Assembly (NCBI GenBank): GCA_017481925.1
Contig: JAFUOK010000005.1
Coordinates: 1 to 32,890 of the forward strand
Direction: 5' to 3'
Source: Alistipes sp.
GTDB lineage: Bacteria; Bacteroidota; Bacteroidia; Bacteroidales; Rikenellaceae
Length of the DNA: 32,890 bases
Of the stretch, positions 17,978 to 30,589 are shown piece after piece. Positions within the stretch are counted from its first letter, which is position 1; each line of letters starts with the position of its first letter. The notes beneath the pieces are model-generated. The model had not been told where the DNA came from. It made no database searches and saw only the letters and a program-made list of their open reading frames with translations. The translations under genes and the position numbers were made by a program.

Positions 17978-18409
17978 TTACTTGCCCGTAGAGCCAAAGC
18001 CGCCGGCGCCACGCTCCGTTGAGCTGAGCTCCTCCACGGCCTGCCACTCGATCTGCTCGTAGCGTGCCACAATCATCTGTGCAATGCGCTCGCCCGCCTC
18101 GATGGTGAAGGGCTCATTGCTCAGGTTCACCAGGATAACCTTGATCTCGCCACGATAGTCGGCATCGATGGTGCCAGGAGAGTTCAAGACCGTGATGCCG
18201 TGCTTGGCCGCAAGACCACTGCGGGGACGTATCTGCATCTCGCAACCCTCGGGAAGCTCAACGAAAAGTCCCGTAGGAATCATAGCACGCTCCAGCGGGC
18301 CAAGGGTTACGCTCTCATCGAGGTTGGCACGGATGTCCAAACCGGCCGAGAGGGGTGTCTGGTACTCGGGAAGCGCAAAGCGCGAATTGTTTACGATTTT
18401 TACTTTCAT
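17978..18409 (-). CDS. dut: dUTP diphosphatase
   Basis: Trimeric dUTPase, 143 residues, hydrolysing dUTP to dUMP and PPi. All five motifs are seen: SAGLDIRA (motif 1), [12 protein letters not shown] (motif 2), [15 protein letters not shown] with the catalytic Asp82 (motif 3), GERIAQMIV (motif 4) and the C-terminal Gly-rich lid [11 protein letters not shown] (motif 5). No signal peptide. It sits 18 bp after the flippase gene on the same strand and ends 3 bp from the structured repeat. Confidence 0.97.
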
Positions 18410-18427
18410 AGTATCTTAGTTTTAGTC

Positions 18428-19906
18428 TTATCTTCTGCGTAGTGCCGAGCCTGCAAGAGCCCGCACATCAATCTTCTCGCGCCACACGGCATAGGCCACA
18501 AAGAGCAGGAAGATCACGATATTCATTCCATACTCCACAACGCCACTCACATGCGGCAGCAGCGCCTCGCTCACAAAGAACAAAGCCACACCCAGCACCA
18601 CATACTCTGCGATACGGCGCACATCGTAGGGCGTAGGGAAGAAGCGGCGATTCAGATAATAGCTCACCGCCACCATAGCCGCCTCGGCCACAAAGCGTGC
18701 CCACGCAGCACCGTAGTAACCCCAGCGGGGCAGTAGCGCGACATTGGCCACAACGGTTACGACCAGTCCCACAAAGGTGACATAGACAGCGAAGCGGGTC
18801 TTCTCCTCACGTTTATACCAGAACGAGAGGTTGAGCCACACGCCCGCCAGCACATTGGCACCCAGGATAACGGGCAGGATGAAGATACCCTCGCGGAAGT
18901 CACGGCCCACAATCAGCGCAAACAGATCGCGGAAGAGGGCGATACCGAGGAAAATCATCATCGAGGCCATCATATAGTACTTGAGCGCAGCGGCGTTGGA
19001 CTCCACAAACTCCTCCTTCGAGAAGTTGGCCAGAAAGAAGGGCTCGGCCGCGAGGCGATACATCTGCGTGAAGAGCGTCATCACAACGGCAATCTTCGTG
19101 ATAGCACCGTAGATGCCGAGCTGCGCCATCGATATATCCTCGGGCAGGAGGTACTTGATCATCTGGCGGTCGATGAACTCATTGGCTGTGCCTGCAATGC
19201 CACCCACCAACAGCGGCAGCGAGTAGGCCAGGATACGGCGCAGTTGAGATCGGTCGATACGGGGTACGGTGCGCTCCGTAGTGGGCAGGATAAGCAGGAA
19301 CGTGGCAACACTCGCCACAAGGTTTGTCACAAAGACCCAGCCCACGCCAAAGGCCGACTCAAAGAGTCCCGTAGCCTGAAACACCACCGCGAGTGTGACG
19401 TTGATAACCACATTGCACGCCTTCAGCGTGACGAACTTCAAGGCCCGACCCTGCTCACGCAGACGCGAGAAGGGAATCATCGTAGCCACATCGAAGAGGA
19501 TGATCGTAGCTACCAGCACCACATACAATTCGTTGCCCACGTACGCATCACCCATCCAGCGGGCAATCGTCGAGCGGAACAACACCACCAGTACAAAGAA
19601 GATACTCGAGGCCACCAGCGTAGCACCCCACGTTGTAGCGAAGAGGTGGCGTTTCTTCACCCTTATCTCCTCATCGCTGCCCCCCTCGGCCTCGGCCTTG
19701 GCGGCAAAGCGGAAGTAGCTCGACTCCATACCCATCGACAGCAACACCAGCGCAAAGGGTATGAGCGCATAGACATCGGTCACAACGCCGTAGGCTGCCT
19801 GACCGAACACACGCGTATAGAGCGGCGTGAGCAGGTAACTCAGCAGTCGCACGACAATGGTGCTGATGCCATAGATGGCTGTCTGTTTGGCTAACTTTTC
19901 AAGCAT
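18428..19906 (-). CDS. Polysaccharide flippase of the Wzx/oligosaccharyl MOP superfamily
   Basis: A 492-residue multi-pass membrane protein, with about 12-14 hydrophobic segments, that moves lipid-linked glycans across the inner membrane. The start LEKLAKQTAIYGISTIVVRLLSYLLTPLYTRVF is typical of the family. Later features are GVVTDVYALIPFALVLLSMGM, SYFRFAAKA and LAYSLPLLVGGIAGTANEFI. The frame reaches 20074, but the extra 56 residues lack family features. The ATG at 19906 has AAAGGAAG 8-15 nt upstream. It is the first gene of the long minus-strand run. No glycosyltransferases adjoin it, so the substrate is unknown. Confidence 0.9.
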   Translation of the reverse strand: MLEKLAKQTAIYGISTIVVRLLSYLLTPLYTRVFGQAAYGVVTDVYALIPFALVLLSMGMESSYFRFAAKAEAEGGSDEEIRVKKRHLFATTWGATLVASSIFFVLVVLFRSTIARWMGDAYVGNELYVVLVATIILFDVATMIPFSRLREQGRALKFVTLKACNVVINVTLAVVFQATGLFESAFGVGWVFVTNLVASVATFLLILPTTERTVPRIDRSQLRRILAYSLPLLVGGIAGTANEFIDRQMIKYLLPEDISMAQLGIYGAITKIAVVMTLFTQMYRLAAEPFFLANFSKEEFVESNAAALKYYMMASMMIFLGIALFRDLFALIVGRDFREGIFILPVILGANVLAGVWLNLSFWYKREEKTRFAVYVTFVGLVVTVVANVALLPRWGYYGAAWARFVAEAAMVAVSYYLNRRFFPTPYDVRRIAEYVVLGVALFFVSEALLPHVSGVVEYGMNIVIFLLFVAYAVWREKIDVRALAGSALRRR

Positions 19907-20025
19907 TCTTCTACTTCCTTTGGTCGTGGCACTCCCATAACCCGATTCTTGCAGTGTGCTCGCGTACGTGTACGATGCGCGGGATTCGCGGGCGGGCGCA
20001 CGCGCACAATGCGCGCTATGACTTG

Positions 20026-20033
20026 CAAAGTTA
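20026..20033 (-). promoter_or_regulatory. -7 box for the flippase-led minus-strand run
   Basis: The reverse strand reads TAACTTTG, matching TAnnTTTG, about 120 bp upstream of the flippase ATG. No clear -33 box. Confidence 0.45.
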
Positions 20034-20204
20034 CAAATATTATTGGAATTACGGTGCGTTTTCGCCGATTTCACCGCTTTTGGCGAGAAAAGGACAATTT
20101 TTGTGTAAAAATTTTATCTCTGCCATCCCTGCTGAAAAAGAGCCGATTAGGTTAAAAGGGGTTAAATATTTTGATAAATTATTGAATTTTTATTGTTAAA
20201 ATAC

Positions 20205-20235
20205 TTGACAAACGCTTTTTGATGTATTATATTTG
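20205..20235 (+). promoter_or_regulatory. Promoter of the phage-like structural cassette
   Basis: TTG at 20205-20207, a 20-bp spacer, then TATATTTG at 20228-20235, a full match to the Bacteroidota housekeeping promoter pattern. Transcription should start near 20240. It is host-type rather than phage-specific. Confidence 0.75.
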
Positions 20236-20241
20236 CACTGT

Positions 20242-20310
20242 CGTTAGTCACCGCGAGAGAGCAACAAGAGAACGATTTTGAAGATTTACGGGTTCTCGCG
20301 GGTGACAACG
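20242..20310 (+). ncRNA. Long 5'-terminal stem-loop in the cassette leader
   Basis: CGTT-A-GTCACC-GCGAGA (20242-20258) pairs with TCTCGC-G-GGTGAC-AACG (20294-20310), giving 16 base pairs with two single-base bulges and a loop of about 35 nt. It begins at the expected transcription start. It has no T-tract and so is not a terminator. It may stabilise the mRNA, bind a regulator or be a small RNA; the sequence does not decide. Confidence 0.6.
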
Positions 20311-20342
20311 GCCATTCGTTAAATCATTGAACTATTACAACT

Positions 20343-20393
20343 ATGATGCACCAACCACTAAGACTTCTGCCACAGGCGGGCCCATTCCCGTAA
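20343..20393 (+). CDS. Possible 16-residue leader peptide ORF
   Basis: ATGATG opens a 16-codon frame (MMHQPLRLLPQAGPFP, then TAA) just downstream of the leader hairpin. It is rich in Pro and Leu. No Shine-Dalgarno site is seen. A second mini-frame (MNISTTELHL) lies at 20408-20440, and both stop codons are embedded in GTAACGCA. They may be chance ORFs or a translated leader controlling the cassette. Confidence 0.25.
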   Translation: MMHQPLRLLPQAGPFP

Positions 20394-20604
20394 CGCAAAC
20401 GGCGGTTATGAACATATCAACAACGGAATTACATCTGTAACGCAGGTTTTTCAACAACAAAAAATTTTCGTTATGCGACTGATACTCCGCAGATTAACAC
20501 ATAGCCGTCAGAACTTATCAACATACAAACACACCAACTTAACAATTTTATCAACACTACAGGAGCCGAAATTTCGGTTCCCGACCCCTAACACCCCTAA
20601 CACA

Positions 20605-21009
20605 ATGAACAGAACACATCTTCTACAAGCCTTCTCCCGCACGGCAACCGCCGACGGCTACCACTTCCACTCCACCGACGACCGCTACATTCCGCAGCTC
20701 GTGACTGCCTACCCTGCTCTGTGGCTCTCGCCACCCGAGTTCAAGCAGATCAAGGGGCGCAAGCACGGAACAATAACCTACAACATCACGGCACACGCCC
20801 TCGATGCGGGCGCAAAGCTATCGCCCACGGAGCGCACGGCACGCCACACGGCGCTGGAGGAGGAACTCATAAAAGTATTCTCCTCGCTCTCGGAGGAGGA
20901 GTTCGTAGTGGCGGTAGAAAACCTCTCGATTCGCCACTCCTCGCAGACGCTCACGTCGGCAGGCGAGGTGGCAGCAACGGCTACCGCAGAGGTAATCACA
21001 TTTTTCTAA
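20605..21009 (+). CDS. Small phage tail-completion-like protein
   Basis: A 134-residue soluble protein, first gene of the cassette. The ATG at 20605 (MNRTHLLQAFSRTATADGYH) is preferred over an in-frame ATG at 20473 because the extra 44 residues are low-complexity Thr/Asn-rich. The order is an N-terminal helix, DDRYIPQLVTAYPALWLSPP, then LEEELIKVFSSLSEEEFVVAVENLSI and a strand-rich Thr/Ala end. Size and fold pattern resemble tail-terminator or completion proteins next to tail genes in Bacteroidota prophages; this is inference. It lies 25 bp before the next gene. Confidence 0.6.
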   Translation: MNRTHLLQAFSRTATADGYHFHSTDDRYIPQLVTAYPALWLSPPEFKQIKGRKHGTITYNITAHALDAGAKLSPTERTARHTALEEELIKVFSSLSEEEFVVAVENLSIRHSSQTLTSAGEVAATATAEVITFF

Positions 21010-21034
21010 GTTTAACTAATAATACCCTGAAAAT

Positions 21035-22009
21035 ATGAAATTTACATCTATACCCGAAGCCTACTCATCGTTTCGGGAGCCACTCCTCTACACCTTCAAC
21101 ACCGAGAGCACAACTCCGCGTGACGTAGAGCTGAAGATCATCAACCGCACCACGGGTGAGGAGATAGGTCGCAAACGACTCTACAACGTAACCACGGGCG
21201 AGGTGGATATTGCGCCCTACCTGCGCTCGGCAGCTCGCACTACGCTTCCCTCAAGCATCGAGGAGTGTGGCGAGGTGAGCGTCGGCACGACCATAAAGGT
21301 GGTGGTCGAGGCCGAGGGCGTGACATCCTCATCGCGCAACTTCATCGCCGCAACCATCGACCGCGATGCGCTCTTCACGCTGCTCACCACGCAGCAGCGA
21401 CACCGCACGATGGAGCGTGATGAGTTTGATCTTATCTCCTACTTCACCTGGCCCGACATCGTCGTATCGTTCGATGTGGAGTTCATCGGCAGCGGCACCG
21501 ACCTCATCACCATAACCCCTCCCTCGGGCGGCCAGCGAACCGTGGCGGTGACGGCCCGAGGTAGAGAGGGGGTGGATACCATACGCGTAAGCATCAAGGT
21601 CGATGACCAGGTGCAAGAGGAAATCGAGTACGACCTGATGCCCAACATACGGGGCTCGCACCGTGTGGCGTGGCTCAACACACATCGCTCACCCGAGGTA
21701 TATACCTTCCCGCTACGCAAGAGTGTCCTCATCGAGGCTACACGCCGCCATATAGAGAGCGTGTGGGGTCGCGAGGCGGCAGCGGTGGAGGGTGCCAGCG
21801 AGCTGAAACTGCTCTCGGCATACGAGCCCGAACACCAGCTAAAGGCCCTGGCCGAGATACTCCATTCGCCCCGTGTGTGGCTCGTCGAGGGTTTGACGGT
21901 GCAGGATGTGATGCTCACCACCGACCGTGTGCTGCTCTCACCCAACGAGGAGATGGGAATCATCGAGGTTGACATACGAGCCGCAGAGGAGGGCGTGCAG
22001 CTATGGTAG
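21035..22009 (+). CDS. Phage-like tail/baseplate protein of unknown exact role
   Basis: A 324-residue soluble protein with no signal peptide or membrane segment. It is mostly beta-strand, with Thr/Val-rich stretches such as DVELKIINRTTGEEIGRKRL and DLITITPPSGGQRTVAVTAR, and a C-terminal section with FPLRKSVLIEATRRHIESVW and LAEILHSPRVWLVEG. I do not recognise a named family. Its 7-bp overlap with the next gene (ATG at 22003, stop at 22007-22009) shows tight coupling to the 773-residue tail protein. A distal-tail or baseplate role is inferred from context only. Confidence 0.55.
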   Translation: MKFTSIPEAYSSFREPLLYTFNTESTTPRDVELKIINRTTGEEIGRKRLYNVTTGEVDIAPYLRSAARTTLPSSIEECGEVSVGTTIKVVVEAEGVTSSSRNFIAATIDRDALFTLLTTQQRHRTMERDEFDLISYFTWPDIVVSFDVEFIGSGTDLITITPPSGGQRTVAVTARGREGVDTIRVSIKVDDQVQEEIEYDLMPNIRGSHRVAWLNTHRSPEVYTFPLRKSVLIEATRRHIESVWGREAAAVEGASELKLLSAYEPEHQLKALAEILHSPRVWLVEGLTVQDVMLTTDRVLLSPNEEMGIIEVDIRAAEEGVQLW

Positions 22010-24324
22010 AGATCTTCATTGACGACAAGCGTTGCGATGTGGAGGTAGGCTACAAGCCCAACGAGGATATCTTCACCTTCGATGCCGAGGCATTCTCCTC
22101 TCTTGACAAGGCACGCACGGGACGCAGCACCACGCTGCGTCTGCCCCTCTCGCCCACGAACGACCGCATAATGGGCTTTGCCGCCGACCCTGCCACGGGC
22201 TCTCAATTCAACTCCTCGCTGCATCGGGGACGTGTGGTGGTGGATGGCGTGGAACTGCTCGCCGGCGTAGCCACACTCCTCGCCATCGAGGGAGAGGATG
22301 GCGCAGGGCATTACGTTGTCAGCATACGCGACGGCGCAGGCGAATGGATCGACACTATCGCCTCACGCTCGCTGCTCGACACCCCGCTTGACTTTGCTGC
22401 AACACTCGACTATTCACTTATCGAGCAGAGCTGGCAGGGCGACAGGACGGTGCGTTTTCTGCCCGTACGTTATGACGACTACCGCGAGCCCTACGACAAC
22501 ACATCACTCTACGCCCCGCAACGAGTGATGACCGTGGGCGACTACCACCCCTTCATCTCGGTGGAGAAGATGCTGCGTGCCATATTCGAGGGCGTGGGCT
22601 ACACCGTTGAGAGCCGTCTGCTCGAGAGCGACGAGTTCAGAAAACTACACTTCAGCGGCTGCTACCCCAAATCGGGTGCCTCGCTCACGCGTCTGGATAA
22701 CTCCTCGGGTTTCAAGGCAGGCAGAACATCCGATGCAACTACGACTGCCGACGTGATGGGTCGTGTGTGGATGACGCCGCTGGTGCTCACCTCTTCGGTA
22801 GGCAACTTCGTTCAGACCACCGAGGGCGGAGAGCTCTACAACAACCGTGGCGTGTTGCAGATTACAGACCAGGGTGTGGAGTATCACCCCTCGGTGGAGG
22901 TGAGTGTGAGCTGGGAGATTTTTCTCAAATACACCACCGACTACCGCATTGTCTCAAGCCAACGACTGCAAGGCTTCGATGCGCTCTACGTCGATACGGG
23001 TTGCGATATGGAGATCCCGCTGGCAAACCCCTACAAGGATCGCCGCACAAGCCTCACGGCAGGGGTGCAGTACAAGTGCTTTGTCTTTGACCTTGCGAGC
23101 GGGGAGGCCCTGCGCCTGATCTATCGCAGAGCAAGTGGCGACACGCTGCTGAAGAGCATCACGGCCGAGGAGAGCTCCTTCACGATGCCCTCGCTTAGCG
23201 GTGGCGAGTGTCTGCTGCTCACCTCCAGCGGCGAGGAGTATGCGGGCGACTGGGCAATATATGATGGTTATGTGGAGCGCACGGGACAGACCGATGTGGA
23301 GATAACGTTACTTACGCCACCCGAAAGGCTAACCCCCTCGAAGGGTAAATCGTTTACAAAGATGTACTTGCACGGAGCCGAGCAGGGTCAGCGTCTGACG
23401 TTATCATCCCACTCGACGTTGCGTCCCCGCTTCTCCTCATCGCCATCGCTGGGTTCGGCGCTCACCACGGAGAGTTTTCTCAACCACGATGCCACGCAAG
23501 CCGACTTTGTGGAGGCCATCCAGCAGATGTTCAACCTGCGCATTGCCACCTGCGAGGAGAGGAAGACAGTCTGCATCGAACCCTACGACGACTTCTACGA
23601 TGGCACGCTGCGCGAGGTGAGCATCTATGCCGACCGCAAGGCTCCGATGCGAGCCTCGGATCTGGCTTGCGAGCAGCGTAAGAGCCTCACGCTATGCTAT
23701 CGGGCCGAGGGCGACGGGGCCGTGGCACGCCACAATGCGCAGACGGGCGAAGTGTTCGGGCAGTGGAGTGCGACCAGCCCCTCCTATGCGGCAAAGATGG
23801 GTCGCAAACGACTTGCCAACCCTCTGTTCTGCCCCACCATATCCACATCGGGCATCCACGCCTCGGCACCCTCGGCGATGATTATGCAGGTGGGCGACCG
23901 TGACGCCGACACTGTGGGAGAGGTGTCGATGCGCATCGTGCGCTACGAGGGTATGCGTCCCCTGCCCGCGGGCGAGAGGTGGGGAGCACCCTCATTTGGC
24001 GAGGAGTATCCCTTTGCGGCGTTCCACTCGGCGGGGGAGTTCACGCTCTGCTTTGAGGATAGGGACAGTGTGCAGGGGCTGCACCGCTACTACGACCGCG
24101 AGTGGCAGGAGCGGAGCCTGAGGCGTAGTCTCTCGCTATCGCTCACCCTGCCCCCACACGCCCTGCCGGCACTTGCAGATGCATCACAGGGAGGAGGAGC
24201 ACGCGACATCTACCGTCTGAGCATTGCAGGTCAGCGAGCCTCGTACTACCTGCACCGCATCACGGGCTACGATGTGGCAACACGCCGTGCGCGGTGTCAG
24301 ATCATTCGCACGGCAGAAGATTAA
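22003..24324 (+). CDS. Large phage-like tail/baseplate protein
   Basis: A 773-residue soluble, strand-rich protein, the largest in the cassette. The N-terminus (VEIFIDDKRCDVEVGYK, FSSLDKARTGRSTTLRLPLS) resembles tail proteins I associate with Bacteroidota prophages. So does a segment near residues 500-530: FVEAIQQMFNLRIATCEERK, followed by VCIEPYDDFYDG. No enzyme motif is seen. It overlaps the preceding gene by 7 bp and precedes the prohead protease by 30 bp. The assignment to tail hub or baseplate is inference and should be tested by structure comparison. Confidence 0.6.
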   Translation: MVEIFIDDKRCDVEVGYKPNEDIFTFDAEAFSSLDKARTGRSTTLRLPLSPTNDRIMGFAADPATGSQFNSSLHRGRVVVDGVELLAGVATLLAIEGEDGAGHYVVSIRDGAGEWIDTIASRSLLDTPLDFAATLDYSLIEQSWQGDRTVRFLPVRYDDYREPYDNTSLYAPQRVMTVGDYHPFISVEKMLRAIFEGVGYTVESRLLESDEFRKLHFSGCYPKSGASLTRLDNSSGFKAGRTSDATTTADVMGRVWMTPLVLTSSVGNFVQTTEGGELYNNRGVLQITDQGVEYHPSVEVSVSWEIFLKYTTDYRIVSSQRLQGFDALYVDTGCDMEIPLANPYKDRRTSLTAGVQYKCFVFDLASGEALRLIYRRASGDTLLKSITAEESSFTMPSLSGGECLLLTSSGEEYAGDWAIYDGYVERTGQTDVEITLLTPPERLTPSKGKSFTKMYLHGAEQGQRLTLSSHSTLRPRFSSSPSLGSALTTESFLNHDATQADFVEAIQQMFNLRIATCEERKTVCIEPYDDFYDGTLREVSIYADRKAPMRASDLACEQRKSLTLCYRAEGDGAVARHNAQTGEVFGQWSATSPSYAAKMGRKRLANPLFCPTISTSGIHASAPSAMIMQVGDRDADTVGEVSMRIVRYEGMRPLPAGERWGAPSFGEEYPFAAFHSAGEFTLCFEDRDSVQGLHRYYDREWQERSLRRSLSLSLTLPPHALPALADASQGGGARDIYRLSIAGQRASYYLHRITGYDVATRRARCQIIRTAED

Positions 24325-24354
24325 CCAGAATTATTAACCACTAAAAACGTAAAA

Positions 24355-25347
24355 ATGCAAACCAAGATCACTATCAGAAATGAAGCCCACACCTGTTACA
24401 TCGACATCGAGGGCACGATAGGGGTACCCGAGCAGCATCAGTTTGAGAACGCCTCGACACGCATTGCCACCTTCGACAGGTTCCGCGAGGAGGTGGCCCG
24501 CATAGCCGAGATCGCCGCCACGAAGGTGGTGGTGAACATCCGCTCGACGGGAGGCGACGTGAACGATGCACTGCTCATCTACGACGCCCTGATGAGCCTC
24601 GATGCCCACATCACCACACGCTGCTACGGCTACACCGCCTCGGCAGCCACGATCATCGCACAGGCCGCCAACGACGGCTGCCGTGAGATTTCGAGCAACG
24701 CTATGTACCTGATTCACAAATCGACCTGCTCGATCGAGGGTAACGCCTCATCGCTCGATGCGCGTGCCGACCTGCTGCGTAAGACCGACGAGCGACTGGC
24801 TTCGCTCTACGCCCTGCACTCGGGTCGCGATGCACAATACTTCGCCGACCTGATGGCCGAGAACGATGGCGAGGGTCGCTGGCTCACAGCCGAGCAGACC
24901 GTGGAGGCAGGCCTTGCCGACCGCATCACCGACAGCCTTATCACGGGTGTGCTTGTACCCGAGGCGGAGGATACCCTGCCGCAGGATACGGCAATGCCCG
25001 AGGTGGTAAACTCGGCCGCCAGCGAGATCATCCGCTACCTGCTGGGGCGTCTGGCCTGCCGCATCGAGGAGTGGCTGGAGCACCTGCACGAGAAGCACAT
25101 AGCCAAACGTGAGGCAAAGCGAGCCGAGAAGCAGGCCCAGCACGACGAGGAGTCGTTGCAGGAGGAGTCCCTGCCACAGGCTGTGGCACAGACACCCTCG
25201 CACTCGACAATCCTCTTTGAGGAGGGACAGCGCCGTTACACCTCGTCGCAGGTCAAGCCGGCGGAGGACCCCTCGATGAATCAGCCGCTACTCCGAGGCA
25301 ACGACGAAGCCTACGCCGACGATGCAAAAGCATTCGGCAGATATTAA
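24355..25347 (+). CDS. ClpP-fold prohead maturation protease with possible scaffold tail
   Basis: A 330-residue protein whose first 200 residues follow the ClpP/S14-type head protease. The oxyanion-loop region is STGGDV (residues 64-69), the nucleophile region is YGYTASAATIIAQAA with likely Ser96, and LIHKS carries His121. The 25-residue Ser-His spacing is as in ClpP. The C-terminal 130 residues are charged and helical (HEKHIAKREAKRAEKQAQHD), like an internal scaffold released on maturation. It sits 43 bp before the capsid gene, the usual protease-capsid order. It should cleave capsid or scaffold during assembly. Confidence 0.85.
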   Translation: MQTKITIRNEAHTCYIDIEGTIGVPEQHQFENASTRIATFDRFREEVARIAEIAATKVVVNIRSTGGDVNDALLIYDALMSLDAHITTRCYGYTASAATIIAQAANDGCREISSNAMYLIHKSTCSIEGNASSLDARADLLRKTDERLASLYALHSGRDAQYFADLMAENDGEGRWLTAEQTVEAGLADRITDSLITGVLVPEAEDTLPQDTAMPEVVNSAASEIIRYLLGRLACRIEEWLEHLHEKHIAKREAKRAEKQAQHDEESLQEESLPQAVAQTPSHSTILFEEGQRRYTSSQVKPAEDPSMNQPLLRGNDEAYADDAKAFGRY

Positions 25348-25390
25348 TCACTCAAAAAACATTTTTATTCACTAAAACACTCAACTAATT

Positions 25391-26383
25391 ATGTCAAGTA
25401 TCATTGTAAACCCCAAGAACTATTCAGGTCACGAACTCGAGACCATCTTCTTCCGTCCTCTTTTGACCGGTCCTTCGGCCGAGTCGCTCGGAATCCGCAT
25501 CCTCTACAATATGCCTATGCCCACCGTCGTGCAGATCTGGGACCGCAAGGGCAATGTCCTCGCGCCCTACGATGAGGCATCGGGCTGGAGCGGCAGCCAG
25601 AAGACCACCCACTACCAGAAGACCATCCCCATGTCACGCGTGAAGGCCGAGAACGCCTTCTCGGCGAGCGACTACTTCTCAACCATCTTCGAGTTGATTA
25701 CCAACCGCTCGGACGTGAATATGGAGGATCTCTCGGGCACAGAGTTGGAGGCTGCCGAGACCGAATTGTTCCGTCGCGCCATTGCCGAGTCTATCCGCAT
25801 GAACCTCTGGCTGGGCGATAAGGGCGGCACGCTGAACACCGGCTACACAAGCTTCGACGGCCTGCTCAAGCTCATCAACGAGCGTGTGAAGAGCGGCGAG
25901 ATTGCCAACTCATCGAAGGAGTTGGAGACCCTATTGAGCGATATGAGCCTGGGCGAGATCTTCTCCGACATCGTGAACGACGCCAGCCCCCGCCTGAAGG
26001 GTCTCTTCCCCGAGGGTCAGGTAGCATTCTTCGTGTCGCCCCGCATCTACGCCTACTACCAGAACTACCTCGATAGTTCGTACGGCGCCGCATCATACCA
26101 GGATTGCCAAACAGGTCGTCCGCAGTTGATGTACCGTGGCTTCCCCGTCATCGAGGTGAACGTAGATCCCGCCATCGGCGACTCATCGCTCTCGAAGGAC
26201 TTCATCATCTTCACCGACCGTCGTAATATGGTGATGGCCGTGAACACCGCCGATAGCCCCGGCTCGGAGATCCGCATGTGGTACAACCCCGACGAGATGG
26301 AGAACCGTCAGAGAGCCGTATTCGCTATCGGCTGCGAGATCCTGGACGAGGAGTTGGTGACGGCATATATCAACGCCGAGTAA
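25391..26383 (+). CDS. Probable major capsid protein
   Basis: A 330-residue soluble protein. Pattern elements fit HK97-fold capsid subunits: an N-terminal arm, a region with ASDYFSTIFELI, a long alpha/beta middle, then PRLKGLFPEGQVAFFVSPRI, MYRGFPVIEVNV and a closing FIIFTDRRNMVMAVNT plus RAVFAIGCEILDEELVTAYI. The position directly after the protease and before a portal-type gene supports the call. I cannot name a family by sequence alone. The leader before its ATG is A-rich, as expected for a highly translated gene in this phylum. Confidence 0.75.
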   Translation: MSSIIVNPKNYSGHELETIFFRPLLTGPSAESLGIRILYNMPMPTVVQIWDRKGNVLAPYDEASGWSGSQKTTHYQKTIPMSRVKAENAFSASDYFSTIFELITNRSDVNMEDLSGTELEAAETELFRRAIAESIRMNLWLGDKGGTLNTGYTSFDGLLKLINERVKSGEIANSSKELETLLSDMSLGEIFSDIVNDASPRLKGLFPEGQVAFFVSPRIYAYYQNYLDSSYGAASYQDCQTGRPQLMYRGFPVIEVNVDPAIGDSSLSKDFIIFTDRRNMVMAVNTADSPGSEIRMWYNPDEMENRQRAVFAIGCEILDEELVTAYINAE

Positions 26384-26396
26384 AACCCCACGCGCT

Positions 26397-26846
26397 ATGA
26401 CCGAGAAGAGATTTAAACCCGTGGGCGGAGTGGCCCACGCAGAACTATTCGCGGTACACAGCCTTGGCGGAGTGGAGGATATCGTATCGGGGCAGGGCGT
26501 GGCCGTGCCGCTTATGGACGACGGCTCGCACTACGACGAGCAGATCGAGGCCTCGGGTCTTCCGGTGAGCGTAGAACATACGCTCACCCTCTGCTCCGAC
26601 CGTAACCTCTCCGAAGGGTGGCGCGACAAGGAGTTTTTGCGGCACGCAGCCGCCGAAGGCGTTGTGGCACACATCACCCTGCTCACGGGCGAGAGGCTTA
26701 TGGTAGGATGGAGCCCCCACTTCGGCTTCGAGCAGGCACTGCGCCTGCGCTCGCTCACCTTTCACTCAGGCTCGCGACCCGCAGAGCAACCGAAGGTGGT
26801 GCTGACACTTGCGTCACGCGACACCACATCGGCATTGGATCAGTAA
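26397..26846 (+). CDS. Small protein between capsid and portal, unknown
   Basis: A 149-residue soluble protein, 13 bp after the capsid gene and 14 bp before the portal gene. It begins TEKRFKPVGGVAHAELFAV and contains EHTLTLCSDRN, GVVAHITLLTGERLMVGWSP and LRLRSLTFHSGSRP, ending in VVLTLASRDTTSALDQ. The strand-rich pattern could suit a tail-tube-like or capsid-decoration protein, but I recognise no family. The frame is intact and the composition is that of its neighbours. Confidence 0.6.
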   Translation: MTEKRFKPVGGVAHAELFAVHSLGGVEDIVSGQGVAVPLMDDGSHYDEQIEASGLPVSVEHTLTLCSDRNLSEGWRDKEFLRHAAAEGVVAHITLLTGERLMVGWSPHFGFEQALRLRSLTFHSGSRPAEQPKVVLTLASRDTTSALDQ

Positions 26847-26860
26847 AAAAATAAATCATT

Positions 26861-28084
26861 ATGGAAAAGAGAAAAACAAAGAGTATGGTGGCCGTCACAA
26901 ACCGCAAGGCCGACTCGCTCTTCACGCTCTCGTCACGTGCCGTGCAGAGCGAGAAGTTCTGGCGCTGGGGCGACGACAATATGCTCCCCTATGCCCTCTC
27001 GCTCATGTCGCGCCGCTCGACCACCCACCGACGAATAATCAACGACAAGGCCGACTACATAGCCGGCAAGGGTTTTTCGTTCGACGAGCAGGAGCCTCTG
27101 CTCAGCTCCTTTGTCGAGCGAGCCAATGGCGAGGGCGACTCGCTCCGACGTGTGCTCTACCGCCTGGCCTTCGACAAGGCTCTGATGGGCAACGCCTTCC
27201 TCGAAGTGGTGACCGACGAGGCTCACTCGTTCCTCTCGCTCCACCATCAGGATGCCTCGCGTTGTCGCCTTGCGCGTGACAACTCTCACGTGCTGCTGCA
27301 CCACGACTGGAGTGCCTTCCGCAGTGAGGAGGCGCGCTCGCTGCCCCTCTATCCTCTGTTCGAGAAGCAGGAGGATGGCTCGTTGCGCACCATCATCCAC
27401 TACAAGGAGTATGAGCCTATGTTCACCCACTACGGCGTGCCGAAGTACATAGCCGGCATGGGTGTATCGGCCATAGCCTACAAGACCGACTGCTGGAACA
27501 TCTCGCGTCTGGACAACTCATTCCAGCTATCGGGCATTATGATGCTCGACACCGAGATGGAGAGCGAGGCCGAGGCAGAGCGACTGGTGCAGACAGCCGA
27601 GAAGCGTTTTGCAGGCACTCCCGGACAGGTGATGTTTGTCGTAGGTGGCGGCGAGGAGGGTAACTCCTCGCGTTTCATACCCCTCGAGTCGAACAACGAG
27701 GGCGACTGGAGCACGCTGCACGACCAGGCCACAAGCGATATAGTGATTGCCCACTCGTGGTTCCGCTCACTGAGTGGTCTGGACTACTCGGCAGGCTTCA
27801 GCGCCGAGCGCATCCTGCACGAATATGAGGTGGCACTCAACACCGTAATCCTGGCCGAGCAGGAGGAGTTGCTCGCACCCATACGTCGCATTATGCACGA
27901 GGTGGCTGCCATCGACTGCTCGTCGCTCGAGATTGTGAACCGCCCGCCCACACGCTCAAAACCCATCTATATGAAAGTGTGGGAGGCACGCAAGGCCGAC
28001 GGCCTGGAGTACGACGCCGAGGACGAGAGCCAGCAGGCCTACCTGTCGGAGATCACGAAGTACAACGTAACTAAAATCAACTAA
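26861..28084 (+). CDS. Phage portal protein
   Basis: A 407-residue soluble protein. Portal-type features: KFWRWGDDNMLPYALSLMSR near the N-terminus, then RRIINDKADYIAGKGF, LYRLAFDKALMGNAFLEVVT and FSAERILHEYEVALNTVILA in the stem/crown region. The portal forms the dodecameric ring at one capsid vertex through which DNA passes. It is downstream of the capsid gene here, whereas most tailed-phage clusters run portal, protease, capsid. It is followed by the connector gene after 2 bp. Length is in the normal range for HK97-like portals. Confidence 0.82.
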   Translation: MEKRKTKSMVAVTNRKADSLFTLSSRAVQSEKFWRWGDDNMLPYALSLMSRRSTTHRRIINDKADYIAGKGFSFDEQEPLLSSFVERANGEGDSLRRVLYRLAFDKALMGNAFLEVVTDEAHSFLSLHHQDASRCRLARDNSHVLLHHDWSAFRSEEARSLPLYPLFEKQEDGSLRTIIHYKEYEPMFTHYGVPKYIAGMGVSAIAYKTDCWNISRLDNSFQLSGIMMLDTEMESEAEAERLVQTAEKRFAGTPGQVMFVVGGGEEGNSSRFIPLESNNEGDWSTLHDQATSDIVIAHSWFRSLSGLDYSAGFSAERILHEYEVALNTVILAEQEELLAPIRRIMHEVAAIDCSSLEIVNRPPTRSKPIYMKVWEARKADGLEYDAEDESQQAYLSEITKYNVTKIN

Positions 28085-28086
28085 CT

Positions 28087-28566
28087 ATGGCACAAAATAT
28101 TATTACACCCGCCGAGGTCATTGCCATAGCCTTCAGCGATGGCGAGTACGTTGCCACGGAGGTGGTCACCGACACCGACATCACCACAGCCATCGAGCGG
28201 TGGATCATCCCCATCACGGGGCGGGCGCTGCTCGATGCCGTTAGAGAGGGTAAGTACGCAGACCTCAAAGAGGAGTACATCACGCCTGCCGCGGCACTCT
28301 GCACGCGTCTTGTGGTTCAGCCACGTCTGAATGTGCAGACCTCGCAGCTGGGGCTTTCGGTTCCTATCGGCTCCCACCGCCGAGCAGCCGATGCGAAGGC
28401 ACGCAAGGAGCTGAAGCGAGCCCTTGTGTTGCGTGCGCAGACAATGCGCAAGCGACTGTCGGCATACCTGGAGCAGCACGCCGCGGAGATTGAGGAGTAC
28501 CGCTCAGAGGATAACATCCTTAACAGATGTTCGTGCGAGGGAGGCCTGGTGCAAATCATTAAATAG
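28087..28566 (+). CDS. Head-tail connector-like protein
   Basis: A 159-residue soluble, largely helical protein starting AQNIITPAEVIAIAFSDGEY. A helical core with IERWIIPITGRALLDAVREG and ITPAAALCTRLVVQPRLN resembles gp6/DUF6712-type head-tail connectors in Bacteroidota phages. A basic C-terminal helix (KARKELKRALVLRAQTMRKR) follows. It lies directly after the portal gene, the expected place for a connector. The exact family is from memory. Confidence 0.7.
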   Translation: MAQNIITPAEVIAIAFSDGEYVATEVVTDTDITTAIERWIIPITGRALLDAVREGKYADLKEEYITPAAALCTRLVVQPRLNVQTSQLGLSVPIGSHRRAADAKARKELKRALVLRAQTMRKRLSAYLEQHAAEIEEYRSEDNILNRCSCEGGLVQIIK

Positions 28567-28573
28567 AGAGAAT

Positions 28574-28975
28574 ATGAGCCGAGGAATAGAAAACTGCAAC
28601 CCGGGCAACATACGTCGCTCGCGGGTGCGCTACAAAGGCGAATGTCACCCTTCGACAGATCCGCTCTTCAAGCAGTTTGAGACGCTGGCGTGGGGCTATC
28701 GTGCAATGTTCATACTGCTCGACACCTATCGTGTGCGCTATGGGCTGCAGACCCTGCGTGAGATGATCACACGCTATGCCCCACCCACCGAGAACCACAC
28801 GGCACTCTACATTGATGCGGTGTGCGATGCCACGGGCATACGCCCCGACGAGCGGATAGATACCCGTTCACGTCGGGTGATGGTGCCCATCGTGGCGGCT
28901 ATGTCGCGTGTGGAGAATGGATGCGCGGCACGACGCTCGGAGGTAGAGCAAGGTTTTGACCTGACAGGATTTTAA
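28574..28975 (+). CDS. P5-like peptidoglycan-acting virion protein
   Basis: A 133-residue protein, last gene of the cassette, 7 bp after the connector gene. It opens SRGIENCNPGNIRRSRVRYKG, the NPGNIR start typical of structural protein P5/muramidase-like phage proteins. WGYRAMFILLDTYRVRYG, MITRYAPPTENHTALYIDAV and the C-terminal RRVMVPIVAAMSRVENG follow. Members are thought to help the particle or its DNA pass the cell wall. No signal peptide or membrane segment is present, and no holin is nearby. The stop codon lies inside the hairpin at 28965-28980. The in-frame region before 28574 belongs to the connector gene. Confidence 0.8.
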   Translation: MSRGIENCNPGNIRRSRVRYKGECHPSTDPLFKQFETLAWGYRAMFILLDTYRVRYGLQTLREMITRYAPPTENHTALYIDAVCDATGIRPDERIDTRSRRVMVPIVAAMSRVENGCAARRSEVEQGFDLTGF

Positions 28976-29027
28976 TCCTGAATTTGTTTCGGGTGCGACG
29001 GAAAAATCATCTGTCGCACCTTTTTTT
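28965..29027 (+). terminator. Terminator of the phage-like cassette
   Basis: GGTGCGAC (28992-28999), a 13-nt loop, GTCGCACC (29013-29020), then seven Ts. A smaller perfect hairpin, CAGGAT-TTTA-ATCCTG (28965-28980), lies just before it over the stop codon. The pair closes the transcription unit started at about 20240 and separates it from comEC. Confidence 0.88.
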
Positions 29028-29053
29028 GTCATTTTTTGAGTAATTTTATTGTT

Positions 29054-30589
29054 ATGAAACCCTTCGTCGACAACATCCTGCGTCATCTCAAGCAGGCCCC
29101 TATGCTCTGCGCCCTCTGCCCGCTCATCGTGGGCATTGTCGTAGCGGAGTGGACGGGTATTGGCGTGGGGTATGCTGCCGTGGCGCTACTGCTCTTCATC
29201 CTCCTCACGCTATGGCGTGGTGGCGACGGCTGGCTTATGGGCGCAATCATAGCCGCCGGGGCATTGAGTGTCGCGCTACGTTCGACGCCCGCACTACCCT
29301 CGCAGGGCGAGATGGAGATCGAGGTGGGACGCATCGTGCGCGAGGATGCAGATGTGAGCATAGCCGAGGCCCGCATAGTGGCATATATGGCCGATGGAAA
29401 AGTTCATCGCAGCCGTGCCGATGTGCGTCTGCACGCCTCGGGAGTGGCCATTGAGCAGGGCGATAGGCTGCGGGCCATAGCCTCAATAAGGCGCTACACC
29501 GACGAAAACGACTACACACGTTATATGGCTGCGCAGGGCATTGTGGCACAAGTGTTTATCTCGCACGAAAACATTTTATTGCACAGCCATTCCGAGCCCT
29601 CTCTCATCGCTCGTCTGCAACACTACGCCCTGCAACGCATCCAGGCCCTGCACCTTACGCCCGATGCCGAACGCCTGACACGCACGGCAGGCATAGGCGA
29701 CAGGAGCTCCCTATCGAGCGATATGCGCAGAGCCTACACCCTCAGTGGCGGGGCGCACCTGCTCTCGGTGTCGGGTCTGCACGTGGGTTTTATCTGCATT
29801 GTGCTGAACGTGCTCTTTGCCCTGCTGACGCTGCTGCGTGGCGGGCAGGTTGTGCGGAGTGTGCTGGTCGTAGGGGCGATATGGCTCTATGCCGCTATGG
29901 CAGGCTTCTCGCCATCGGTGGTGCGTGCCGCAACGATGTTTTCTATCGTGCAGATTGCCACAACGTTATACTCCTCCTCGCGAGGACTTAACACACTCGC
30001 CTTCACGGCCTTTGTAATGCTTACGGTGGATGCCCGCACGATCCACGATGCAGGTTTTCTGCTCTCGTTCCTTTCGGTGGCGGCTATCCTTGTGTGGGTG
30101 GCACCCTACGCCCGTGCACGGCGGCGACTGCTACCCTCGCACAGCCTGTGGCGTGATGTGGTGCAACGCATGGCCTTTCGGCTGCTGATGGCTATCGAGG
30201 TAAGCATAGCGGCTACGGCTATGACGCTGCCGCTGGCAAGCTCCCTGTTCGGCACAATAACACTGTGGGGCATCCTCCTGAGCCCGATACTTGTGCCGCT
30301 ATGCGGTGTGCTGGTCGGCGTAACCATACTATGGGTTGTACTGCCCATTGCGCCTCTGCAAACACTCGTAGGGTGGATACTGGAGCATACAGCCACGACG
30401 ATGAACTCACTGTCGGAGTGGGCGGCTCAGAGTGGCTATCTCACGGCGGAGGTGGGTATAAGTCAGGGGTGGTGCTACGCAATATATGGGGTGTTTTTGC
30501 TGCTGACCCTTGTGTTGTGGGCTCTGCCTGCACCCCGCGAGAAGATAGTTTTTGATTTTGCCGTGCGCAATGAGCCACAAGGAGAATAA
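29054..30589 (+). CDS. comEC: ComEC/Rec2 family DNA-uptake channel protein
   Basis: Inner-membrane channel that carries single-stranded DNA into the cytosol in transformation. It is 511 residues from the ATG at 29054 (a TTG at 29036 is possible). The order is N-terminal membrane segments with a DUF4131-type soluble domain (about 25-165), then the Competence domain with ten or so membrane segments and the signature HLLSVSGLHVGF near residue 235. PSVVRAATMFSIVQ and DAGFLLSFLSV follow. The C-terminal metallo-beta-lactamase domain of Bacillus ComEC is absent, as in many Bacteroidota versions. It is read away from the cassette terminator; no clear promoter was found in the 26 bp between them. Confidence 0.92.
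   Translation: MKPFVDNILRHLKQAPMLCALCPLIVGIVVAEWTGIGVGYAAVALLLFILLTLWRGGDGWLMGAIIAAGALSVALRSTPALPSQGEMEIEVGRIVREDADVSIAEARIVAYMADGKVHRSRADVRLHASGVAIEQGDRLRAIASIRRYTDENDYTRYMAAQGIVAQVFISHENILLHSHSEPSLIARLQHYALQRIQALHLTPDAERLTRTAGIGDRSSLSSDMRRAYTLSGGAHLLSVSGLHVGFICIVLNVLFALLTLLRGGQVVRSVLVVGAIWLYAAMAGFSPSVVRAATMFSIVQIATTLYSSSRGLNTLAFTAFVMLTVDARTIHDAGFLLSFLSVAAILVWVAPYARARRRLLPSHSLWRDVVQRMAFRLLMAIEVSIAATAMTLPLASSLFGTITLWGILLSPILVPLCGVLVGVTILWVVLPIAPLQTLVGWILEHTATTMNSLSEWAAQSGYLTAEVGISQGWCYAIYGVFLLLTLVLWALPAPREKIVFDFAVRNEPQGE

Follow-up and report, generated by a model that had tools for sequence, protein, structure and literature searches.

A probable phage-derived, gene-transfer-agent-like element of Rikenellaceae with genes over two loci

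Gene transfer agents (GTAs) are defined in PMC9662315 as particles of caudoviricete-derived proteins, whose endogenized and often multi-locus genes are mostly inherited vertically, and which package mostly random host DNA, do not fully package their own genes and deliver DNA to cells. The nearest described case to the element studied here is FpGTA of the gut bacterium Faecalibacterium prausnitzii (Bacillota), which, as described in PMC12946183, has two unlinked operons with capsid, portal, terminase, holin and endolysin genes and no identifiable tail, the large terminase (TerL) belonging to the capsid operon and the lysis genes to the other one. We analyzed a window of 32,890 bases from Alistipes sp. 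(assembly GCA_017481925.1; 1.9 Mb, 84% complete), which is the entire contig JAFUOK010000005.1 (C50), and found in it a cassette of capsid, portal, protease and lysis genes that resembles FpGTA in its gut host, its two unlinked loci, its gene content and its lack of an identifiable tail. Unlike in FpGTA, TerL stands apart from the capsid genes, together with an S24 repressor, and whereas FpGTA is described as making DNA-filled particles (PMC12946183), the Alistipes system is likened to it by description. Known from its genes alone, it is probably a vertically inherited, phage-derived GTA-like element of Rikenellaceae with genes over two loci.

RcGTA and the alphaproteobacterial type I GTAs share with the cassette a caudoviricete origin, multi-locus genes, vertical inheritance and co-diversification with the host (PMC9662315), and RcGTA recipients are described as requiring ComEC (PMC10883770). 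GTA-like packaging is reported in PMC12946183 mainly for Ruminococcaceae and Oscillospiraceae, and Rikenellaceae are mentioned there once, among the three most abundant families in the donors' total DNA; the Bacteroidetes entries that appear in PMC7947584 are Salinibacter viruses. The open-licence literature, to which our search was confined (subscription papers and preprints not covered), yielded no report of a GTA in Rikenellaceae or Alistipes. RcGTA has a tail with a tape measure, unlike the cassette, and its control lies with CtrA, GafA and other host factors instead of a phage-type repressor encoded nearby. Among the matches listed for TerL were the Bacteroides fragilis siphophages B40-8 and B124-14 (44-46% identical over 92-96%); these are phages with their own genomes, in which the cassette capsid had no match.

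A capsid cassette and a distant terminase locus

The cassette consists of nine open reading frames (ORFs), all open and on the plus strand, which span 20605-28975 with intergenic gaps of -7 to 43 nt.

20205-20233, plus strand: promoter, TTGACA-N17-TATATT(TG), kept in relatives
20605-21009, plus strand: g1, 134 aa, putative tail-region protein by position alone, no library match
21035-22009, plus strand: g2, 324 aa, homologues immediately upstream of g3 in related phage contigs
22003-24324, plus strand: g3, 773 aa, putative tail-tip protein, homologue of the gene preceding the tape measure in related phages
24355-25347, plus strand: g4, ClpP-like prohead protease, 330 aa (PF00574 3.7e-26, over the cut-off; phrog_94 7.5e-38)
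25391-26383, plus strand: g5, candidate major capsid protein, 330 aa (weak phrog_1623, 2.1e-5, and phrog_212 matches; position; phage homologues)
26397-26846, plus strand: g6, 149 aa, putative head-region protein, with a homologue lying between the capsid and portal genes of phage contigs
26861-28084, plus strand: g7, portal, 407 aa (TIGR01540 2.2e-14 and PF04860 1.7e-8, both below their cut-offs; phrog_11226 7.2e-20)
28087-28566, plus strand: g8, DUF6712-like head-tail connector candidate, 159 aa (PF20459 4e-4, below the cut-off)
28574-28975, plus strand: g9, P5-like peptidoglycan-degrading protein, 133 aa (phrog_873 1.9e-41)
28991-29021, plus strand: intrinsic terminator, 12-pair stem and T run

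An earlier, sequence-only reading of the window had described nine intact, tightly spaced plus-strand genes between a promoter and a terminator, and this arrangement held, with agreeing coordinates for both signals; the start of g1 was moved from 20473 to 20605, where the alignments of relatives begin, and the start codon of the P5-like gene to 28574. Judged from sequence, the identities of the protease (ClpP-type), the portal (PBSX-type) and the P5-like lysozyme are clear, and their profile matches agree with the labels given before. The capsid label of g5 is weakly supported by its profile matches, its position and its phage homologues, which adjoin protease and portal genes. The g8 homologue in the relative L044 matched PF20459 at 8e-11. 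No library or PDB profile search bore out the tail labels proposed for g1 and g2, and profile scans of g1, g2, g3 and g6 gave nothing informative. PDB sequence and profile searches with the capsid, g1, g2, g3, g6, the portal, TerL and the repressor returned no useful match; the sole PDB match of TerL, a TALE-repeat chain (5.8e-5), was judged spurious. An Rfam scan of 18000-30000 gave no match, and PADLOC found nothing.

Consistent with the absences and chromosomal neighbours noted before, there was no terminase, integrase or repressor among the 9 cassette and 20 flanking ORFs scanned (the remaining ORFs were not scanned), the scanned flanking ORFs were host genes, no tRNA was present, and no direct repeats bracketing the cassette were found. 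Thus, the integration or replication genes and att sites that stand beside the structural module of a temperate phage were not seen among these host-type neighbours. Directly past the terminator lies comEC (29036-30589), whose first possible start is 60 nt after the P5-like gene; in the four Alistipes loci that gave a ComEC match, the protein is only 32-42% identical.

The cassette had also been called self-contained, which is wrong at genome scale because the terminase lies on another contig. The TerL family, phrog_38, was found via two deep genomes (G013 and G007), in which TerL adjoins the protease. A phrog_38 search then returned a terminase in 28 of 31 chosen genomes, including the source genome (C47:1937-3328), so that the unlinked terminase which the sequence-only reading had proposed to look for in the same genome was indeed present; the three genomes without it (G009, G029 and G021) also lacked the portal. 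In the source genome, the second locus (G000:C47:1925-4445) holds TerL, a small coupled protein and, in divergent orientation, a LexA/CI-like S24 repressor. Another terminase profile, phrog_2, gave a common weak match of ~330 aa in the 20 genomes searched and, in addition, matches below 1e-20 in four genomes, and was judged irrelevant.

We then compared portal and TerL across 150 genomes of the family. A portal relative was present in 131 (95 of the 99 high-quality genomes) and TerL, at E<=1e-100, in 129 (93 of 99); both were found in 124 genomes, the portal alone in 7, TerL alone in 5 and neither in 14 (Fisher p 6e-11, uncorrected for kinship). Nine of the 14 genomes with neither come from five genera without a positive member, and the other five are metagenome-assembled genomes at most 70% complete. 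Portal and TerL shared a contig in 26 genomes, at 2-3 kb in six, 8-18 kb in eight and more than 20 kb in 12; all six closest cases belong to deep genera labelled g8 and g14 (genus labels, not genes), in Alistipes TerL lies far from the capsid genes, and the distance along the contig reached 2.0 and 2.6 Mb in G087 and G101.

The TerL motifs PPQHGKS, DDL, TDxAD and ESNNGGRG, which we take to be the ATPase and nuclease motifs, were invariant in 28 of 28 rows of an alignment from which four prophage-like loci are excluded. In 25 of 28 terminase loci, a repressor-like gene (cluster c1) lies divergent from the TerL side; scans of two members gave a helix-turn-helix and a Peptidase_S24 match (3.4e-13), and the GDSMYP segment, the VKY segment and a GTAG site, presumably marking the dyad and cleavage site of a LexA-type protein, recur in most, though not all, of 26 repressor rows. 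The small coupled protein c2 (98 aa; L198 3331-3627, G000:C47) overlaps TerL (469 aa) by ATGA. Relatives of ~96 aa stand just before TerL in 20 of 28 TerL loci and have no family match; c2 could be a small terminase (TerS) without the DNA-binding domain. The unlinked terminase shows that such a system would escape any search that stays within a single contig. An operon kept on the chromosome, a motor encoded elsewhere and the retention of both by most relatives point to a DNA-carrying particle of the host's own making, not to a resident virus.

Inheritance, intactness and loss of the tail

Our statements on the loci of Alistipes and Rikenellaceae refer to the best 80 of 227 capsid loci. The genomes of these relatives bear the names Alistipes, Rikenellaceae or Bacteroidales, and Alistipes sp. 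RGIG894 comes closest (95%). One locus, L129, is from an isolate, A. muris DSM 112343, and has g2-g5, g7, g8 and P5, whereas g1, g6 and the holin gave no match. The genes were of full length in nearly every locus: capsid in 80/80, g8 in 76/76, P5 in 67/67, portal in 77/79 (the other two cut by contig ends) and g3 in 69/72 (one short, two cut); 15 of 76 protease genes had less than 90% of the window's length. A holin stands between g8 and P5 in 63 of the 80 loci, in 62 of them at full length, and matched PF05105 at 1.5e-10 in a relative; in L091 and L093, as in the window, it was not found. The synteny that the earlier reading had proposed to look for was observed, as the order g1-g2-g3-protease-capsid-(g6)-portal-g8-(holin)-P5 is kept in most of 20 relatives; g1 and g6 went undetected in six Alistipes, and in three deep genomes only protease, capsid, portal and g8 were detected at the cassette. 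ComEC, THUMP or YbaK relatives lie on the downstream side in 29/60 loci. In G087 (L036 13446-14525), a transposase gene separates g3 from g2, while the rest of the cassette is conserved.

The presence of the portal in the family was widespread, not sporadic, and 126 of the 131 genomes had a single match. Among the five with two, two second matches were only 21-25% identical and two were gene pieces. One genome, G103 (C22 and C84), has two full-length portals, 69% and 66% identical to the window's, in an assembly with 3% contamination, and holds either two cassettes or a mixed bin. The capsid profile matched 8 of 247 genomes of the order, of which three belong to the same family, four are weak (E 6e-12 to 3e-7) and the eighth is a 95-residue piece in G292, from another family.

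To relate these genes to their hosts, we compared their distances with those of the host gene HolB in Mantel-type tests (22-25 genomes, one host gene). Correlations were 0.83 for the portal, 0.53 for the capsid, 0.82 for TerL and 0.65 for the repressor, with 0 of 1000 permutations in each case reaching the observed value. Furthermore, the family's portals form one clade (support 0.96), with the phage contig L271 as its sister. Between the window and its nearest relative, dN/dS was 0.07 for capsid and portal, 0.13 for P5 and 0.18-0.27 for the others. Being widespread, mostly single, mostly intact and tracking a host gene, the portal makes the cassette look unlike a prophage or a decaying remnant.

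Set beside the GTA definition, the profiles of the protease, portal, TerL and P5-like proteins point to a caudoviricete origin. The genes are endogenized over several loci, as TerL is either on another contig than the cassette or at a long distance from it and neither an integrase among the scanned ORFs nor att-like repeats were seen, and the HolB tests and the portal clade support mostly vertical inheritance and host co-diversification. The dispersal of the genes over the chromosome makes incomplete packaging of the element's own genes likely.

We next compared the cassette with related phages, three IMG/VR contigs and the Elizabethkingia phage TCUEAP1. L084 has the order g2-g3-tape measure-protease-capsid-g6; L086 has TerL, then g2-g3-tape measure-capsid-g6-portal-g8, its protease being unmatched by profile; L271 has protease-capsid-g6-portal-g8; and TCUEAP1 is annotated as TerS-TerL-...-g3 homologue-...-tape measure-...-protease-...-portal. 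As far as each shows, the order is that of the cassette, which had been taken for unusual. The g3 homologue and protease of TCUEAP1 match the cassette's by sequence, while its capsid and portal are not recognised by cassette profiles; in profile-profile comparison only g3 was significant, and links for g1, g2, g5, g6, g7, g8 and TerL were not. Unlike the cassette, the TCUEAP1 operon is headed by TerS and TerL.

L084, L086 and TCUEAP1 each have a tape measure of 1010-1496 aa, whereas the cassette has none. As the sequence-only reading had noted, holin and tape measure are both missing from the cassette; g3 and the protease are 30 nt apart in the window and at most 791 nt apart in 72 relatives. 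Genome-wide, the phrog_1272 tape-measure profile, the one such family searched and one that also matches control archaea, scored below 1e-20 in 5 of 19 genomes, with 8.5e-4 as the best value in the source genome. At least 37 of the 72 loci carry, in the stretch from g3 to the protease, a conserved ORF of ~86 aa with a motif like CCSYEKVR (L154 8738-8998); this ORF is absent in the window, and the two members scanned gave no family above the cut-off and no tape-measure match. The gene after g8 in L271 matches major tail protein families, largely via Ig domains, and at this position cassette loci have P5 or holin. In the six genomes examined from the deep genera g8 and g14, a genome-wide search gave no g3. 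Thus, by gene comparison, loss of the tape measure is well supported and loss of the tail tube is probable.

Candidate control by the second-locus repressor

The promoter-like site at 20205-20233 matches the consensus at 11 of 12 positions, and its block, TATATTTG, is found again ahead of g1 in relatives, in 31 of 38 upstream regions; this set and the leader-repeat set below exclude L095, which is short, and four upstream regions that were redundant. As classes, promoter-like sites (6 in the window, shuffle mean 4.5) and terminator-like sites (5, shuffle mean 6.9) were not enriched. Four further features surround or follow the promoter.

20173-20188, plus strand: operator-like site 1, upstream of the cassette promoter, best matrix score in the whole window
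20240-20312, plus strand: hairpin in the 5' leader, next to the promoter on its downstream side (RNA folding energy -27.7 kcal/mol, z -4.3)
20318-20333, plus strand: operator-like site 2, downstream of the promoter, second-best matrix score in the window
20448-20556, plus strand: TTWTCAACA repeat array (20448, 20515, 20548), same leader in relatives

The operator matrix was trained on the intergenic regions between S24 repressor and TerL, which hold no cassette sequence. All 15 regions were used for the first window scan and 11 of the 15 for the multi-locus test, after four with weak or misplaced sites had been dropped. In 22 of 32 loci, the matrix had its top match ahead of g1. Matrices with shuffled columns gave a mean of 7.9 and a maximum of 17, and 0 of 200 reached 22. 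These sites are moderate evidence that the repressor of the second locus may control the cassette in trans. A search for the operator as a near-palindrome gave two matches in the window, not above chance and none at the cassette.

In L088, which is the closest relative, the leader is likewise predicted to fold (z -2.3), and its altered bases still pair. Spacings of the TTWTCAACA repeats cluster near multiples of 11-11.5 bp, and 0 of 500 random sets were equally phased (related loci uncorrected). The paired repeat at the cassette is the assembly's only one in G000, G125 and G132, three of six genomes; a reading as DnaA boxes was rejected, as the pair occurs elsewhere once in G116 and not at all in two of the six genomes, and the reversed control pattern occurs twice in G112. 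These counts do not support an origin.

Weighing the explanations

We infer the following working of the GTA-like element. Locus 1 would supply protease, capsid, portal, connector, adhesion or tail-tip-like proteins and a wall hydrolase, to which most Alistipes relatives would add a holin; locus 2 would supply the large terminase, the small coupled protein and the LexA/CI-type S24 repressor. In growing cells the repressor would silence both loci, and DNA damage would lead to its self-cleavage. The capsid would then assemble on the portal, TerL would fill it with host DNA, and the lysis proteins would release a particle that, without a tape measure and probably without a tail tube, would be tail-less or very short-tailed and might be taken up by kin. 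The position of comEC directly downstream of the cassette is no more than suggestive of a link to uptake. A fuller version, in which this is an independently domesticated Bacteroidota GTA that was kept across a family, lost its tape measure and tail tube, scattered its motor, came under one SOS repressor in trans and works by lysis and uptake through the ComEC channel, is possible and, in our view, doubtful.

Several observations weigh against the GTA-like reading, and the entry of a tail-less particle into a cell is a weak point of it. The PDB profile search of the capsid gave no match, and no small terminase was identified, the scans of c2 giving no family match. The window has no holin between g8 and P5 (28566-28574), though its nearest relative has one, and outside Alistipes P5 was found in 0/10 loci and a holin in 2/10, so that the lysis genes are not family-wide. 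The dN/dS check proposed at the outset came out low for the closest pair; in wider pairs (dS 0.05-1.2) medians were 0.23-0.59 and maxima exceeded 1 for g1, g2 and g6 and reached 1.00 for the capsid, which makes selection less clear there. The operator evidence is limited by imperfect half-sites, an AT-rich promoter region and the relatedness of the loci, and 10 of 32 loci have their best site elsewhere. Finally, G046 and G115, two genomes of high completeness from the same genus, keep TerL without a portal (one search of these genomes ran without a positive control), which implies that the portal is dispensable. In G115 (L282 7828-8820), the protease is joined in frame to the last part of g8 by a deletion that removed capsid and portal, with TerL and repressor still in place; G046 gave no match to portal, capsid or g3.

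Such losses would fit an old prophage in slow decay with its frames still open, as would the missing tape measure, the probable lack of a tail tube and the transposase gene in G087. We consider this very improbable, as nearly all of the 80 loci are full-length, matches are single in 126 of 131 genomes, and the genes are congruent with a host gene and co-occur with an unlinked TerL. A defective PBSX-like killing or lysis device, with incidental packaging of DNA, would fit the match of the portal to the PBSX model TIGR01540 (below its cut-off), the SOS induction suggested by the S24 repressor, and the holin and P5-like genes of Alistipes relatives. PBSX-kind killing particles need a complete tail with a tape measure, however; none was found in the cassettes, none is conserved genome-wide by phrog_1272, and in three deep genomes TerL, capsid, portal and protease are retained with no lysis or tail profile match at the locus, so that we regard this explanation as unlikely. 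The cassettes examined, all without a tape measure, and the genera g8 and g14, in which only head genes and TerL were recognised, could point to a capsid compartment holding protein or no DNA, in an encapsulin-like use. An empty or protein-filled shell needs neither a portal nor a motif-intact terminase, yet the two are co-conserved in 124 of 150 genomes, and we rate the compartment as decidedly improbable.

The least probable explanation, to which we give hardly any weight, is a capsid-forming satellite or an active, reinfecting phage family. It would account for the short fragments among viral contigs and for the 3.3 kb locus of G292, in which a truncated capsid is followed by g3-like sequence. 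The eight closest viral-contig matches are 4-13 kb long and 62-81% identical to the host portal, however; no integrase was seen among the scanned ORFs and no att-like repeats were found, and the cassette keeps its place between Wzx/HolB and ComEC, with at least one flank common in 32 of 50 long-flank loci and both in 13. An adjoining terminase in close relatives, which the sequence-only reading had named as counting against a host-kept particle, was seen in part, in the deepest genera; the genomes looked at there had one portal match each, with part of the neighbours scanned. The preference of that reading for a GTA-like or otherwise host-kept particle over an active prophage is supported by the gene evidence as a whole.

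If the GTA-like reading is true, a particle of this kind in most Rikenellaceae would give gut bacteria a native means of exchanging genes and would add one phylum to the short list of known GTAs. The intermediate states within the family, in which TerL is linked, near or far and the tail genes are there or missing, would make it possible to follow domestication step by step along a tree.

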